From a virus: a stretch of 40,659 nt of DNA. The notes under the pieces were generated by a model. The model had not been told where the DNA came from and made no database searches. It saw nothing but the letters and a program-made list of their open reading frames with translations. Positions 23,426 to 40,659 of the stretch are shown here, piece after piece. A program made the position numbers and the translations under genes. Location: the IMG/VR virus record IMGVR_UViG_3300047319_000776, positions 1 through 40,659 of that record; one strand, 5' to 3'. The stretch's first letter is position 1. Each line of letters begins with the position of its first letter.

Positions 23426-23692
23426 CTAGCGTGCAATGAACTCCGCGTCGCGGCAGTTCGCCTGATCGATGGAGCGCTTCTCTCTCTGAGCTTTGAACGC
23501 TTCGTCCATACCGCACATCGCGCGCGCGTAAACGTCGCATTCCTCCAGTTGGGCGTGGGTCATCTGACCGATCGGCGTGTGCCTGCATGAAGGCCTGATT
23601 TGGTCTAGACTCTCCTGCCAGTTGGCCAGCGCGGGGCCGCAAAGCGCCGCGGCAAGCAGCCCAACGACGACGACGAATTTGATGCGGGCCAT
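23426..23692 (-). CDS. small secreted cysteine-containing protein
   Basis: An 88-residue protein with a clear signal peptide (MARIKFVVVVGLLAAALC, cleavage expected after ALA near residue 23). The mature part has four cysteines (PSCRH, EECD, AMCG, ANCRD), enough for two disulfides in the periplasm. The ATG overlaps the integrase stop (TGATG). As part of an operon likely to be on in the lysogen it may alter the host envelope; this is inference. Confidence 0.75.
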   Translation of the reverse strand: MARIKFVVVVGLLAAALCGPALANWQESLDQIRPSCRHTPIGQMTHAQLEECDVYARAMCGMDEAFKAQREKRSIDQANCRDAEFIAR

Positions 23693-25056
23693 CACGCCGC
23701 CTCCCTCAGTTGCACGACGTTGCTCGTGGTCGGCTCGGCCAGACCGGCGATCTCGAAAGCGGTACTCGCGCCGTCCAGCAGCAGGTCCGCCCAGGCGCAC
23801 GCAACGCGCAACCGATCGGGATCGGGCGCGCCGTCGAGGTCGGTGTCGTCATAATGCCGCGCCGCCAGCGACGGCCGGATCGGCAGGTGCGCCAGCATCA
23901 GGTCGATGATCGGTTCGTCGCGCCGGTCGCGCCGTTTCATGACCGTGTAGAACGTCGTCCGCCAGCCGTGGACGGTATGCCGCCCCGCCAGTTCGTCTGG
24001 CAGCGAGCGGTTCATCACTACGTTGACCACGGAAGCGTCGATAAAGCCGCCCTTCGCTCGACCGGGGAAACATGCCGGCGAGGCGATACCCAGGCCCCTA
24101 GCCAGCGCGCGCGCCGCGCAAAGCACCTCTATCGCCTGGGGTGCCAATGGGATGACGTGCGGCCGTTTCTTGCCGAGCTTGCCCTTCATCCGCTTGGCCG
24201 GAATCGTCCAGGTCCAACCGTCCGCCCCGTCGGTGATCTCGGACCACTCGGCCGCGAGGCCTTCCCGCTTGCGGACGGCGGTCAACGCGATCAGCCGGTG
24301 GGCGAGCTTGGCGAACGGCTGACCGTTGCTCAACATCTCGACCGCATCGAGGACGGCGCGCGCGTCCTCGATCGTTGTCACCGCCGGCCGGTTTACCTCG
24401 GCTTCGTCGCCGCGCACGCGCCGCGGCAAGTCCTCGGCGATGGTCCGCACCAGATTCTCGGTCACGCCGGTCTCGTGCTTGCGCCGTAGCGCGAAGTCGA
24501 ACATCGCCGACAAGTGCTGGCGGACATGCACCGCCTGGGTGCGATGCCGCTCGGAAAGATCGACCACCAGCGTCTCGATCTCGCCCGTCGTCACCCGGCC
24601 GATCGGACGCTCGCCAATCGCGGGATATACGTGGTTGGTCAGCCGGCCTGTGACGCACTTCGTAAAATGGGCAGACCAGCCCCGCGCCACGCTGGCGCGC
24701 TTGATCCAGGCATCGCCGATCGTCCGCACCGTCGCGGCCTCGGCGCCTTGTCGCGTCGCGCGTTGCTCGTGCCGCTCGATTGCCGGATCGCCGCCCGCTC
24801 GGACGGTCCGCTTGATCTCATCGCGCTTCGCCTTCGCTTCCTCGACGGTAAGCTCGGGCCAGCGGCCGACGATCGTCGCCTGATGCTTGCCGGCGACGTG
24901 GTAGTGAACCTGCCAGGACTTGGTTCCGTTCGGCGAGACCAGCAGATACAGCCCGTTGCCAAAGCGCAGCTTGGCGCCCGGCTTGGCGGTCTTGATCTCA
25001 GTGCCCTTGGCAAGCCTGCCGGCTTGCTGCGGGCGGGGGTGGGGTGTAGCGTTCAT
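23692..25056 (-). CDS. int: tyrosine integrase, P4 type
   Basis: A 454-residue site-specific recombinase. Residues 20-95 form the DUF4102-like arm-binding domain (KLRFGNGLYLLVSPNGTKSW). Residues 105-210 are the core-binding domain. The catalytic domain has Arg in ALTAVRKREGLAAEW (about 262), Lys near 289-291, HGWR (363-366), the second His in LMLAHLP (390) and the nucleophile Tyr402 in ARHYDD. ATG 25056 is chosen; longer readings to 25275 cross the hairpin at 25084-25114. It would insert the phage into the host chromosome, using sites probably in 25401-25645. Confidence 0.93.
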   Translation of the reverse strand: MNATPHPRPQQAGRLAKGTEIKTAKPGAKLRFGNGLYLLVSPNGTKSWQVHYHVAGKHQATIVGRWPELTVEEAKAKRDEIKRTVRAGGDPAIERHEQRATRQGAEAATVRTIGDAWIKRASVARGWSAHFTKCVTGRLTNHVYPAIGERPIGRVTTGEIETLVVDLSERHRTQAVHVRQHLSAMFDFALRRKHETGVTENLVRTIAEDLPRRVRGDEAEVNRPAVTTIEDARAVLDAVEMLSNGQPFAKLAHRLIALTAVRKREGLAAEWSEITDGADGWTWTIPAKRMKGKLGKKRPHVIPLAPQAIEVLCAARALARGLGIASPACFPGRAKGGFIDASVVNVVMNRSLPDELAGRHTVHGWRTTFYTVMKRRDRRDEPIIDLMLAHLPIRPSLAARHYDDTDLDGAPDPDRLRVACAWADLLLDGASTAFEIAGLAEPTTSNVVQLREAA

Positions 25057-25083
25057 TTCGGTCGAACCTTTCCAGTGAGTAAA

Positions 25084-25114
25084 AACGGCGTCCCTCCGCC
25101 AGAGGGGCGCCGTT
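25084..25114 (-). terminator. intrinsic terminator between small secreted gene and integrase
   Basis: A 12-base-pair stem (AACGGCGTCCCT / AGGGGCGCCGTT, one G-T pair) with a seven-base loop is followed on the minus strand by a T run. It lies 28 bases before the integrase ATG, so integrase probably depends on read-through or on its own promoter. It could also act as an attenuator. Confidence 0.75.
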
Positions 25115-25126
25115 GCTGTTTGTGGG

Positions 25127-25387
25127 CTAGTTGTGTCGAAGGCCGCTAAAGCGATCGATCGGCGGCCCGGCATCCTTGGGTGTGGTCTTTGTGGTGCAGG
25201 CGACGTTGATGCCGCCAGAACCGCAAAGCGTGTACGTTTTCGAATTGGGCGTCTCATAGGTGGACTGGCAGGCATAGACGCCCCGCGTCACCCGGCCGCA
25301 GCGGCTCTCGCCGGATGACTGGGCGTCTGCGCTGCCGCAGACAGCCACGGAGAGTAGCCCAGCGGCGGCGAGTAAGGCTTTGTGCAT
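25127..25387 (-). CDS. small secreted protein upstream of integrase
   Basis: An 86-residue protein with a signal peptide (MHKALLAAAGLLSVAVCGSA, cleavage near ADAQ). The mature part has four cysteines (ESRCG, YACQ, TLCG, VACT), suggesting two disulfides. It ends before a strong terminator and its promoter region carries the operator at 25456-25470. It is not homologous by eye to the secreted protein at 23426. It may be a lysogenic conversion factor, though its operator suggests repression in the lysogen. Confidence 0.7.
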   Translation of the reverse strand: MHKALLAAAGLLSVAVCGSADAQSSGESRCGRVTRGVYACQSTYETPNSKTYTLCGSGGINVACTTKTTPKDAGPPIDRFSGLRHN

Positions 25388-35667: not shown

Positions 35668-36549
35668 TCAGATCAGCACCGTCTGCCGCTCATCAGCCCT
35701 ATCACTGGTCTTAGCCGAAGCGTCGTAGCCGGCGAAGTCGGTGTATTTCCAGAACCGGCCGTTGACCCAACGCTGCACCTGCTTAAGCCTGCGCTCGGTC
35801 CAGTCGAACCGGACATGCGGGCGCTTCTCCAGCGCATTCAGCTTGATGAACGGCTGGGCATACGGCTCGCCGCCCCAGGCGATCACCTCCCTGATCCGCT
35901 CCATGCACGCAGCAAACGGCTCGTTGCCGATCAGCGTGTAAACCTGCTTCTTGCGCGGGCTGACATCACGCAGCATCCGCATCACCCGCTCGACATCCGG
36001 CCGGTCGCGCGCTTCATCGAACGCAAAGCGCCACGGCCCCTGGTTGATCCCCCGCCATCGAGCGAACACGTCCTCATCGAACGTCGCCGGCTCGAACCCG
36101 CTCTGCGCATCCGCCAGCATCATACCAGTCGCCTTGTAGCGGCCGATGATGTGGTCCTGATACTCAGCCGGCAGGCCCGACAGGTTGTTGTCGCAAAGCA
36201 CCGGCCGCACCGGGAAGTCAGGCAGCAAGGTGAACGTCTTGCCCTCCATCTTCGGCACGATGCAGAACCAGCATCCGACCGGACAGCCCCGGCTTGCCAT
36301 CGTCGCCATCGGGTTGTGATGCACCAGGGCATCCGGCACATCGCCACCAAGCTCTGCCACGTCGGCCAGATAGTGCTTGCGGGTAAACACCCCAGGACCG
36401 CCAGCGCGCACCGTGTAGCCCTGCGCCCGATACCAGACGGCCCGCATGTAGGCGTCGTCCAGGCGCCACGAAAAGGCCACCGACAGGAACGCCGTCTCGC
36501 CTTCTGTCCACTCAGCGAGTCCGTTTACCCAGGTGCCTGTCGGCGTCAT
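35668..36549 (-). CDS. radical SAM enzyme
   Basis: A 293-residue protein with the canonical CxxxCxxC cluster-binding motif in SRGCPVGCWFCIVPK (Cys89, 93 and 96). The N-terminal 85 residues form a domain with FLSVAFSWRL and GVFTRKHYLADVAE. After the motif come LLPDFPVRPVLCDNNLSGLP and, near the end, IKLNALEKRPHVRFDW. It binds a 4Fe-4S cluster and cleaves S-adenosylmethionine; the substrate is unknown. It stands alone on the minus strand between direct repeats, as a moron would. DNA or tRNA modification are possibilities. Confidence 0.85.
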   Translation of the reverse strand: MTPTGTWVNGLAEWTEGETAFLSVAFSWRLDDAYMRAVWYRAQGYTVRAGGPGVFTRKHYLADVAELGGDVPDALVHHNPMATMASRGCPVGCWFCIVPKMEGKTFTLLPDFPVRPVLCDNNLSGLPAEYQDHIIGRYKATGMMLADAQSGFEPATFDEDVFARWRGINQGPWRFAFDEARDRPDVERVMRMLRDVSPRKKQVYTLIGNEPFAACMERIREVIAWGGEPYAQPFIKLNALEKRPHVRFDWTERRLKQVQRWVNGRFWKYTDFAGYDASAKTSDRADERQTVLI

Positions 36550-37034: not shown

Positions 37035-38198
37035 ATGGCAGTTTTGACCGTTTCCGCTGGGCAAAGCATCCAGGCCGCGATCGACGCCGCGGCTCCCGGC
37101 GATACGATCGATGTGCAGACCGGCATTTATAGCGACCAGTTTCTTACCGTCCGCACATCGCTGACCCTGCAAGCGGTCGGCGGCGAAGTGGTGATGACCG
37201 AGGACACCTCGCCGCCCGATGGCAAAGCCATGATCACCGAGGGCGCGGCCGGCGTTTCGGTCGCGATCAATGGCTTCGACATATCGGGCGTATCGGTGGG
37301 TGATCAGAATGGCGCGGCGATCCGCTATGAGGGCGGCAATCTCTCGTTGTCGAATGATTATTTCCACAACAACCAAGAGGGCCTACTCGGCGCCGCAGAC
37401 CCGGCCGGTTCAATCTCGATTGACCATAGTGAATTCGCCTTCAATGGCGACGGTTCAGGCAGCACGCACAACATCTACGTCGGAGCCATCGCGGACTTCT
37501 CGCTCACCGATAGCTACATCCACGACGCCGTTGTCGGCCATGAGGTGAAGTCGCGCGCCGCCAACAACACGATAACCGGGGACCGCATCTTCGATAACAA
37601 CGGCTCGGCGAGCTATTCGATCGACCTACCGAACGGCGGCAACGCAACGATCAGCGGCAATACGATCGAGCAGGGACCGAACACGCAGAACCCCTTTATT
37701 GTCGCCTATGGCGAGGAGGGCGCGTCCAATCCCGGCACCGACGTGTCGATCGCTGGGAACACCATCGTCAACGATGATCCCCGCGGTTCCTTCCTGCTCA
37801 ATCCGAGCGGTGTCGCGCCAGCGTTCAGCAGCAATCAAGCGTTCGGCCTCGATGCGTCGAAGCTGCCGTCAGGAACGGTGCTGCTGGCCAACCGGCCAAG
37901 CCTCGACACGTCATCGCTGACCTTCATCAATCCTCCTTCGTCACCCACAGGATCAACGTCACCCCCAGAAACACCGCCACCGCCACCGCCAGTATCGCCA
38001 CCCCAGCCCATCCCACCGCCGCCTCCACCGCCAGCCGAAACGTTGGATCAGTACCACGTCATGGTGCTGGCTGATTTCAACGTCTACGCCGCCGCGCATC
38101 CGACGGTATGGATCAGCCCGACAGCGCTGACGGCGATCGTGACGGAAATCACCTCGACCTCGATCCTGACGCACGTTCCCGGCGACCTCTGGTCGTAA
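37035..38198 (+). CDS. right-handed beta-helix protein with Pro-rich linker
   Basis: A 387-residue protein. It opens with SIQAAIDAAAPGDTIDVQTG, the usual start of pectate-lyase-like beta-helices, and continues through Asn/Gly-rich coils (NDYFHNNQEG, GNTIEQGPN, IAGNTIVNDD) to about residue 275. A Pro-rich linker at about 300-335 joins a C-terminal domain of 50 residues. No signal peptide is seen. It could be a tailspike-type depolymerase encoded away from the tail genes, or host-derived cargo. No catalytic residues can be named. Confidence 0.75.
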   Translation: MAVLTVSAGQSIQAAIDAAAPGDTIDVQTGIYSDQFLTVRTSLTLQAVGGEVVMTEDTSPPDGKAMITEGAAGVSVAINGFDISGVSVGDQNGAAIRYEGGNLSLSNDYFHNNQEGLLGAADPAGSISIDHSEFAFNGDGSGSTHNIYVGAIADFSLTDSYIHDAVVGHEVKSRAANNTITGDRIFDNNGSASYSIDLPNGGNATISGNTIEQGPNTQNPFIVAYGEEGASNPGTDVSIAGNTIVNDDPRGSFLLNPSGVAPAFSSNQAFGLDASKLPSGTVLLANRPSLDTSSLTFINPPSSPTGSTSPPETPPPPPPVSPPQPIPPPPPPPAETLDQYHVMVLADFNVYAAAHPTVWISPTALTAIVTEITSTSILTHVPGDLWS

Positions 38199-38220: not shown

Positions 38221-38883
38221 ATGCGTACCATGCTCCTCGCCGCTACGGTTCTCGGCTTCGCGGTCATTGCGCCGGCCGGCGCCACGCAGATCATCAGCTT
38301 CGGTCAGACTTCCGGCAGCAACACCGTCGTTGCGACCGACAACGGCACCGTAACCAACATCTCGATCACCAATGCTGGCGTGCTGATTGATCAGTTGTTC
38401 GGCGCCACAACACCACCCGCAATCGCCGCCGTAATGAACCTGACGGCGCACTCGATTGATGCTGCGCTATCGATTGGTAATGCCTTCTTGCAGCATTATT
38501 CGGGCAGCTTCTCGATCGTCGGCGCTGGCAACGTCAACGAACTTAGCGGCTCATTCAGCGACGCGGCATTCGGCACCTCGACCGGTAGTCAGTTGTCGAT
38601 CAACGTCGCGGCGCCACCCGACGCGCTGAGCCTGTCGTCCGATGTGATCCCGGCCGCCGACCTGACGCTGCCGGCATCGTTTACGCTGGCGATGTCCAAC
38701 ATTCCGGCACCGCCCAACGGACCGGGCCTGCATCTCGACGGCACCACGATCGCCGCATTCGACGCTTCGTTCTCCGGCGTCGCGAACGCGACCACCGTTG
38801 CCGCGCCCGAGCCAGTCTCGCTTGCGTTACTGTGCACCGGCTTGGCCGGTCTGGTCTTCGTCAAGCGGCGCAATGCCCGCTAG
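38221..38883 (+). CDS. PEP-CTERM secreted protein
   Basis: A 220-residue protein with a signal peptide (MRTMLLAATVLGFAVIAPAG, cleavage after ATA-like GAT) and a C-terminal PEP-CTERM sorting signal: APEPVSLALLCTGLAGLVFV followed by KRRNAR. The mature region is Ser/Thr/Ala-rich and beta-type. Such proteins are cut and exported by a host exosortase, often for extracellular polysaccharide. AAGGAA precedes the ATG. In a phage this is unusual and suggests cargo that acts on the host surface. It overlaps the ParB-like gene by 11 bases. Confidence 0.85.
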   Translation: MRTMLLAATVLGFAVIAPAGATQIISFGQTSGSNTVVATDNGTVTNISITNAGVLIDQLFGATTPPAIAAVMNLTAHSIDAALSIGNAFLQHYSGSFSIVGAGNVNELSGSFSDAAFGTSTGSQLSINVAAPPDALSLSSDVIPAADLTLPASFTLAMSNIPAPPNGPGLHLDGTTIAAFDASFSGVANATTVAAPEPVSLALLCTGLAGLVFVKRRNAR

Positions 38884-39553
38884 TCGCAAGGCGACATCAA
38901 AGCCGGCGCCGCCCAAGATCGAGTGGCCGGCGGATCAGGTCGAGCGGCGACCGATCGCCGAGCTTGTGCCGTATGCGCGCAATGCTCGATTGCATTCCGA
39001 CGCACAGATCGCACAGATCGCCGCGTCTATACGCGAGTGGGGCTGGACGATACCGGTTCTGGTAGATGAGACCGGCGCTTTGATCGCCGGCCACGGCCGC
39101 GTCCTCGCCGCGCGGCAGTTGGAGATCGAGGCGGTTCCGACGATGGTCGCTCGCGGCTGGTCGGAGGCGAAAATCAGGGCGTATCGGATCGCCGACAACA
39201 AGCTCGGCCTGAACGCCGGTTGGGACACCGCAATGCTCGGCCTGGAACTCGCCGACCTGCGAGACCTCGGCGCCGAGATAAACCTCACCGGCTTTGCCGC
39301 CTTTGAACTCGACGCGCTATTCGGCGACGGTGTTGCTGATCCCGACAAGCAGTGGGGTGGAATGCCGGAGTTCGAGAACGAAGATAAAACCGCATATCAG
39401 CGCATCGTCGTTCACTTCAAAGACCAGACCGCGGTCGACGCCTTCGCGGAACTGATCGGTCAGAAGATAACCGAGAAAACCCGCTTTCTGTGGTTCCCCG
39501 AGATCGAGATCGGGCATTACGCCGACAAGGAATATGCTACCGGTGAATCCTGA
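38873..39553 (+). CDS. ParB-like N-terminal domain protein
   Basis: A 226-residue protein. Residues 24-115 form a ParB/Srx-type domain: RRPIAELVPYARNARLHSD, then IREWGWTIPVLVDE and the GHGR motif (73-76). In many phages this domain is fused to a DNA methyltransferase; here no methylase follows. Instead, residues 165-226 (EDKTAYQRIVVHFKDQTAVD, then LTEKTR-like ITEKTRFLWFPEIEIG) form a different C-terminal region. It overlaps the next gene by 20 bases, so it probably works with the glycosyltransferase-like protein. Confidence 0.85.
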   Translation: MPASRKATSKPAPPKIEWPADQVERRPIAELVPYARNARLHSDAQIAQIAASIREWGWTIPVLVDETGALIAGHGRVLAARQLEIEAVPTMVARGWSEAKIRAYRIADNKLGLNAGWDTAMLGLELADLRDLGAEINLTGFAAFELDALFGDGVADPDKQWGGMPEFENEDKTAYQRIVVHFKDQTAVDAFAELIGQKITEKTRFLWFPEIEIGHYADKEYATGES

Positions 39554-40409
39554 ATTCCCGGTGTATATCGTCTCGAAGGGACGGCATGAAAGCCGACTGA
39601 CGGTGCGCAACCTTGAACGGATGGGCGTCCCCTACCGTATCGTGGTCGAGGAGCAGGAATATCGGGATTACGCCGCGGTCATCGACCCCGCGAAAATCCT
39701 GGTCTTGGATAAGCAATATCAGCGCTATTACGATCCGTGCGACCACCTCGGACCCGAGGTTAGCAAGGGATCGGGTCCGGCTCGGAACTTCGCCTGGGAT
39801 CATTCCGTCACGCTCGGTGCGGCGCGGCATTGGGTCATGGATGACAACCATGTGCGCGGCTTCTTTCGCTTTGACCGCAACCTCAAAGTGCCAGTCGCAG
39901 ACGGGACCATTTTTCGCTGCATGGAAGACTTTGTATCGCGATATCGGAATATCGGCATGGCAGGCCCGAACGATTTCCGATTTGCAGCACGAAAGACTAC
40001 GCCGCCGCCCTACACACTGAACACGCGGATTTATTCGTGCATCCTGATCCAGAACGATTTGCCGTTCCGCTGGCGCGCGCGTTTCAACGAAGATGCCGAC
40101 CTCTCGCTGCGGATGCTGAAAGCCGGACTATGCACGGTCCAGTTCAACGCCTTCCTGCAAGACAAAGCGAACACGCAGACCGTGAAGGGTGGCAACACCG
40201 AACTCTACAAGACGCATGGAACGCTCGCGAAATCTCGGCTCCTAGTCGCGCTCCATCCTGACGTTGCCAAGGTGGTCTGGCGGTTTAGCCGCTGGCACCA
40301 CGTCGTCGATTACAGTTCCTTCAAGGTGAACAAGCTGATCCTGGCGCCCGGCGTCGAGGTTCCGCGCGAGCCGAACAACTACGGCATGACGCTCAGGCAG
40401 GCGGCATGA
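39534..40409 (+). CDS. TET-associated-type glycosyltransferase (TAGT-like)
   Basis: A 291-residue protein resembling the TAGT family of GT-A-fold enzymes, linked to sugar addition to modified bases in phage DNA. It opens FPVYIVSKGRHESRLTVRNL and VPYRIVVEEQEYRDYA, has GSGPARNFAWDHS, a DxD-like HWVMDDNH (DDN at 103-105), and FNEDADLSLRMLKAG, the family's acceptor-side motif. AAGGA lies just upstream of the ATG. No TET, hydroxylase or base-synthesis gene is seen in the window, so its substrate is open. Confidence 0.8.
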   Translation: MLPVNPEFPVYIVSKGRHESRLTVRNLERMGVPYRIVVEEQEYRDYAAVIDPAKILVLDKQYQRYYDPCDHLGPEVSKGSGPARNFAWDHSVTLGAARHWVMDDNHVRGFFRFDRNLKVPVADGTIFRCMEDFVSRYRNIGMAGPNDFRFAARKTTPPPYTLNTRIYSCILIQNDLPFRWRARFNEDADLSLRMLKAGLCTVQFNAFLQDKANTQTVKGGNTELYKTHGTLAKSRLLVALHPDVAKVVWRFSRWHHVVDYSSFKVNKLILAPGVEVPREPNNYGMTLRQAA

Positions 40410-40410
40410 G

Positions 40411-40659
40411 ATGCCGCAACGTCCGCCAGTCCACATATCCCCGCATAGCAAGCGCGCTGCATGGTCTCACCCACGCGGCATGGAGACCAACACGAGTCGA
40501 GGCTATGGCGCTGCTTGGCGTACGCTTCGTGGGCGTGTTCTCGCTGAAGAACCGCACTGCCGTTACTGCCTCAAGGAAGGCAGGCACACCAGGGCAACGA
40601 CGGTTGACCACATCCGACCGAAGGCGAGAGGCGGAACGGACGCAAGGTCGAACCTATGC
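40411..40659 (+). CDS. HNH endonuclease, truncated by window end
   Basis: The first 83 codons of an HNH nuclease. It reads GYGAAWRTLRGRVLAEEPHC, RYC, then TTVDHIRPKARGGTDARSNL before the window stops at a cysteine codon. The expected CxxCH-type end is missing. HNH genes directly upstream of terS are common in HK97-like phages and aid cos cleavage. It starts one base after the glycosyltransferase stop. Confidence 0.88.
   Translation, partial: MPQRPPVHISPHSKRAAWSHPRGMETNTSRGYGAAWRTLRGRVLAEEPHCRYCLKEGRHTRATTVDHIRPKARGGTDARSNLC

Follow-up and report, generated by a model that had tools for sequence, protein, structure and literature searches.

What do a ParB-like gene and a TET-associated-type glycosyltransferase (TAGT) gene do together, overlapping each other directly ahead of the packaging genes of a phage? 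The question is raised by the window analysed here, which is the whole of IMG/VR record IMGVR_UViG_3300047319_000776 (40,659 bases). The reading we favour, to which we assign a probability of about 0.7, is that the two genes encode a two-subunit phage DNA glycosyltransferase, in which the ParB protein and its C-terminal domain (MOD) would form the DNA-targeting adaptor and the TAGT the catalyst. Functional claims are based on homology and gene association.

Judging by its gene content, the phage is temperate: the set includes an integrase (23692-25275, - strand), an annealing protein, Gam-like genes, a repressor and a VapE-type primase-helicase. No end repeats were found in the 40,659-base record. 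The terminase small subunit, terS (235-723, + strand; phrog_83, E=7e-48), and large subunit, terL (723-2411, + strand; phrog_9, E=1.5e-156), open the record, and in the inferred circular order they are the next genes after an HNH endonuclease cut by the record end (40411-40659, + strand; PF01844, E=2.1e-8). The order is thus ParB-MOD, TAGT, HNH, terS, terL. The original prediction had an HNH gene directly after the ParB/TAGT pair and terS across the window end, and both were confirmed, the former by the PF01844 match and the latter by terS and terL at the window start. HNH also lies downstream of the cassette in the closest relative of the window (locus L287). We treat it as a neighbour and do not claim that it belongs to the modification cassette.

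The TAGT gene (39543-40409, + strand) matches PF20691 with 149.1 bits (cut-off 27.5) and E=2.1e-43 over model positions 1-205 of 205, which bears out the predicted family. Its motifs DDN (residues 103-105) and NED (residues 185-187, numbered from the ATG start) are invariant in 18 homologues. The model of a homologous fused MOD-TAGT protein matched GT-A enzymes weakly in Foldseek (TM 0.33-0.38); in the PDB, the closest folds are those of glycosyltransferases acting on glycans and proteins, with generic GT-A similarity only. It had been stated in advance that the prediction would fall if the enzyme belonged instead to a family of cell-wall or protein glycosylation; no such match was obtained, the best family being TAGT.

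Translation more likely starts at GTG 39543 than at the alternative ATG 39534, given that the former yields the family-typical start xNPxFPxYI and that AAGGA, likely the Shine-Dalgarno sequence of the TAGT, is present at 39527-39531 (+ strand) inside the 3' end of the ParB-MOD gene. Both overlapping ORFs of the original prediction were recovered, in different frames. L287 retains a TAGT start at a GTG that overlaps the ParB stop, and in 79 loci of the ParB type the distance from the ParB-MOD stop to the start of the TAGT domain ranges from -34 to +18 bases, a spacing consistent with translational coupling. A frame error between the two genes is ruled out by the overlap kept in L287 and by these 79 coupled loci.

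The TAGT family owes its name to an association with TET/JBP, which is not a requirement, given that T-even TAGTs occur without either. T-even glucosyl-hmC is made by gp42 together with an alpha-GT. TAGTs of T2 and T6 are reported to glycosylate DNA (PMC13216743, PMC13390438). In comparison with these beta-glucosyl-HMC-alpha-glucosyltransferases, the window protein has PF20691 in common and the D-D-N/D and E-D motifs align, but the T6 protein scores 39 bits against 149 for the window, which places the window clade far from the tested enzyme, and no MOD was seen in T6. The T-even TAGT adds a second glucose onto glucosyl-hmC (PMC13216743), whereas no such acceptor pathway was found in the window record. 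The TAGT-like proteins of Aeromonas phage Aeh1 and Vibrio phage Kuja belong to the same clade (51-53% identity), but carry MOD fused at the N-terminus and no ParB domain; these are large lytic myophages that have a nucleotide metabolism of their own. The Aeh1 glucosyltransferase listed as "presumably modifies DNA, unknown base" (PMC8056088) is probably this TAGT.

The two genes of the window are connected by MOD. The TAGTs of Kuja, Aeh1, PTm1, POP12 and Vibrio phages 1.076.O and 1.124.O carry about 100 additional N-terminal residues, and this extension aligns with the last ~70 residues of the window ParB protein. This C-terminal part (39340-39550, + strand; WGGMPEF...KTRFLWFP) follows the consensus W-x-GMPEF ... 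V-x-F ... F ... KTKS-x-WFP, for which Pfam, PHROGs (26 members scanned) and PDB sequences gave no convincing match. When IMG/VR was scanned with a MOD-only alignment, a TAGT was fused or downstream in 80/80 loci (best 80 of 165), the alignment being a strict version biased toward KTKS-x-WFP members. Among 167 non-redundant TAGT loci (85% identity), 88 have ParB-MOD, 52 a free MOD, 15 a fused MOD-TAGT and three another arrangement with MOD; the nine without MOD are contig-truncated or partial matches, and every locus with intact upstream sequence carries the domain. By these counts, MOD-TAGT linkage is obligate in this clade. The survey of TET-less genomes proposed with the original prediction thus found the ParB/TAGT pair together in about half of the clade, and the MOD adaptor in all of it. 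The family can do without ParB, given the 52 loci with free MOD and the 15 with the fusion, where MOD and TAGT occur in its absence. On the TAGT tree, the three architectures require 16 changes against 54 in shuffles, and are therefore stable but interconvertible. The fused MOD-TAGT of locus L058 was predicted as one confident unit (pLDDT 90.2, pTM 0.89). In bacterial genomes, a single-protein scan gave no match and an alignment scan gave 35 loci. Since the ParB tail and the N-terminal region of fused TAGTs are homologous, and since this tail always accompanies a TAGT, it would serve the TAGT, which supports the earlier suggestion that the ParB C-terminal region may guide the transferase.

The ParB-MOD protein itself (38873-39553, ATG start, + strand; 226 residues) combines MOD with an N-terminal ParB/Srx-fold domain. 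The proposed profile check succeeded in part: the phrog_620 match is strong (E=3.7e-48), while Pfam ParB_N remained below its cut-off (22.5 versus 26.3 bits). With the AF2 model (pLDDT 90.8, pTM 0.69), Foldseek retrieved Noc, CTP-bound ParB, PadC, KorB and sulfiredoxin from the PDB, with E~1e-7 for Noc, ParB, PadC and KorB. The motifs of the domain are N37, GHGR (73-76) and N109, and N37, G73 and N109 are near-invariant among 78 homologues. Chromosome and plasmid ParB, Noc, KorB and PadC have the ParB/Srx fold in common with the window protein at ~20% identity, but their CTP motif is GERR instead of GHGR, and the window protein differs in its C-terminal MOD and in having no ParA neighbour: no ParA partner was found among the annotated window genes, the neighbours being a PEP-CTERM protein and the TAGT. 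A plain partition ParB is therefore not supported, given the lack of a visible ParA, GHGR in place of GERR, and the identity of the genes that accompany this domain elsewhere.

These partners were surveyed with a query restricted to the ParB domain. The 80 best-scoring IMG/VR loci have an N6/N4-MTase in 40 cases, a C5-MTase in 15, Mom in 10, MOD-TAGT in five and a distant second TAGT branch in three; two reach the contig end, and five have none identified, a label that may hide others, as partner classes were searched by name. Hence, all identified partners in this best-scoring set (73/73) either modify DNA bases or are TAGTs. No class was presupposed, each having come up first among Pfam hits. 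The locus sets used here are the best-scoring subsets of longer hit lists (80 of 165, 597 and 239), and many contigs are fragments.

The position of the domain is also shared. In phage ParB-N6/N4 MTase fusions (phrog_498; MW202748, 65% ParB identity), the same ParB domain is found directly before terS-terL, as in the window cassette, but the effector is a fused methylase, with neither MOD nor TAGT; MW202748 and MW202867 present the order ParB-MTase, putative DNA-binding protein, terminase. Mom is an adenine carbamoylmethylase. Pairs of ParB and Mom (PF25680), such as that of Psychrobacter phage Y8A (ParB, overlapping Mom, terS, terL), have the same ParB domain, an overlapping effector gene and the pre-terminase slot in common with the window, but their ParB ends in another adaptor, which resembles MOD weakly at best (hhalign probability 22%). 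A window-type ParB is directly upstream of Mom in 75 of the 80 best-scoring Mom loci, with three truncated and two without it. In the second TAGT branch, ParB without MOD is present in 9/9 loci with upstream sequence, and TerL is downstream in 11/11. TerL was found at most 3 kb downstream in 59/76 ParB-MOD/TAGT, 23/29 ParB-MTase and 50/67 ParB+Mom loci, against 2/14 for fused MOD-TAGT and 0/44 for free MOD, where the TerL queries, mostly taken from ParB-type loci, may cause an undercount in the last figure and possibly bias the contrast.

This distribution suggests a common plug-in ParB platform for marking phage DNA, and the window presents its order, with ParB directly before a putative DNA-modifying effector and upstream of the terminase. 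The description of a "ParB without a methylase" in the original prediction is correct for this locus, but the ParB domain is a shared platform, and being methylase-free is one state of a swappable slot. If the platform is real, one adaptor logic would join methylases, Mom and DNA glycosyltransferases, effectors could be predicted for unassigned ORFs in the pre-terminase slot, and the question of how Mom and TAGT locate DNA could be approached.

The tails of the platform proteins differ by partner. In Mom loci (L367-L446 and L283:3989-5246), the ParB tail reads GDKxPFQQMTFTLxDEQ...NSNGNAL and is possibly a Mom-specific adaptor. That MOD and this tail are the same domain is doubtful, the profile similarity between them being weak. 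In Y8A, L283:4593-5246 is Mom (Pfam E=1.8e-55) although annotated as hypothetical, and the Y8A paper calls ORF69 Mom instead. Loci of the second TAGT branch (L339, L340, L348, L447-L457) have a ParB tail of the form EYAVIVC..DEWERLK...VRRGGYKKGS, set before terL. Many of the loci L288-L301, L323, L327, L335 and L360 have a zinc-ribbon ParB tail (CPKCGFRWSG-like) followed by a C5-cytosine methylase.

The closest relative offers a direct view of module exchange. Between the window and L287, ParB residues 1-125 are 94% identical, falling to 53% over residues 126-157, 49% in MOD and 65% in the TAGT, with flanking DNA at 81-91%. This profile indicates an exchange of the effector end, with the ParB in front of it left constant.

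In the mechanism we propose, catalysis would fall to the TAGT, a GT-A enzyme that carries the DDN and NED motifs. The ParB/Srx-fold domain (N37, GHGR 73-76, N109) would load on DNA, where it might act as a nucleotide-gated clamp or read a site, and MOD would dock the TAGT. The cassette would be expressed with the packaging genes, so that sugar would be put on phage DNA before encapsidation, where it would probably counter host restriction. A DNA glycosyltransferase is the most economical reading, because ParB otherwise partners DNA-base modifiers and TAGTs and because T2/T6 TAGTs glycosylate DNA. It is very unlikely that the TAGT acts instead on a phage or host protein, a tRNA or an envelope glycan, with ParB an incidental neighbour. 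GT-A folds are generic, those nearest in the PDB act on glycans and proteins, and an exported PEP-CTERM protein (38221-38883) is encoded upstream at the locus, all of which would suit a non-DNA target; yet the tail of ParB is a module that belongs to the TAGT N-terminus, ParB is otherwise the partner of DNA modifiers, and the second TAGT branch shows the same ParB arrangement.

Under the favoured reading of a DNA glycosyltransferase, the base that receives the sugar has to be considered. An acceptor-making enzyme was not found in most records, and the proposed chemistry is therefore incomplete. The acceptor may be a base that is already modified (5hmC, 5hmU or methylated), with a precursor supplied by the host or by a phage gene not recognised as such, in a TET- or T-even-like manner, a tentative reading that we put at somewhat less than even odds. 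All characterised TAGT chemistry is on a hydroxymethylated or already glucosylated pyrimidine (PMC13216743, PMC13390438), and TS-family genes are present in 10/53 records, including several large lytic relatives. Of the 21 ParB-type records, however, L024 alone has a TS-family match, which is partial, and C5-MTase was found in 2/53 records. TET/JBP was found in 0/53 records, the window included, in a search without a positive control, so that absence is likely rather than proven. Mycobacterium phage Cooper is a TET carrier. The 40.7-kb temperate window record, in which several small ORFs have no assignment, presents no recognisable base-synthesis or acceptor-making gene, and neither gp42-like (thymidylate-synthase-like) genes, TET (with the same lack of a control) nor C5-MTase, as would mark a T-even- or TET-type pathway; this agrees with the original prediction, in which no TET/JBP or base-synthesis enzyme was visible.

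A radical SAM gene of the window (35668-36549, - strand; phrog_9298, CPVGCWFC), in the same genome as the TAGT, might be counted in favour of a premodified base, as genes of this kind are also located between MOD and TAGT in L248 and L176. Proteins of this type are rare in phages (3 matches in 50,697 records), and as a general acceptor-maker radical SAM is ruled out, being present in 3/50 records only.

Alternatively, the TAGT may place sugar directly on a canonical base, e.g., on an exocyclic amine, which we consider rather doubtful. By analogy, the other effectors of the ParB slot (adenine and cytosine MTases, Mom) act directly on canonical bases, and most records have no acceptor-maker; even the large records G015 (177 kb) and G041 (184 kb) gave no TET- or TS-family match. 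Against it, we know of no DNA glycosyltransferase acting on an unmodified base, and the acceptor is a hydroxyl for the TAGTs and T-even GTs characterised so far. Of the two readings, we slightly favour the premade acceptor, given that a hydroxyl group is used in all known chemistry of the TAGT family. It is unlikely, in our estimate, that the pair represents an undescribed class, i.e., a direct canonical-base glycosyltransferase delivered by a ParB fold via MOD, among interchangeable pre-terminase effectors (methylases, Mom and both TAGT branches) of one ParB platform.

Several MOD/TAGT loci carry further sugar-related genes, which suggests elaborated sugars. A DXD glycosyltransferase (Gly_transf_sug) is beside or between MOD and TAGT in L130 (by Pfam) and in L112 and L116 (by eye), an epimerase gene is found at L134, and a second TAGT at L030, L113, L115 and L157. 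In L013:3478-5001, one ORF combines ParB, MOD and an FkbM-type methyltransferase, and is followed by the TAGT.

TAGT was already known as a DNA-modifying family; the MOD adaptor and the shared ParB platform appear to be new. We found no literature on MOD, on the ParB-MOD/TAGT pair or on the Mom/MTase/TAGT swap, although some of this may be covered by Iyer 2013 and Burke 2021. In a 2026 survey, 288 of 753 GT-carrying phage genomes had TAGT without alpha- or beta-GT, described as potentially novel transferases (PMC13216743). Of those 288 TAGT-only genomes, a testable part can be delimited by the MOD signature and the ParB slot, and sugar-modified DNA bears on restriction, CRISPR and type IV defence.

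Upstream of the cassette, the exported protein with a PEP-CTERM sorting signal (+ strand; Pfam E=0.0037, under the cut-off) is unusual phage cargo, and a PEP-CTERM gene is upstream of ParB in L287 as well. The PEP-CTERM gene and the radical SAM region flank the gene of a beta-helix protein (37035-38198, + strand) with a long proline-rich stretch near its C-terminus.
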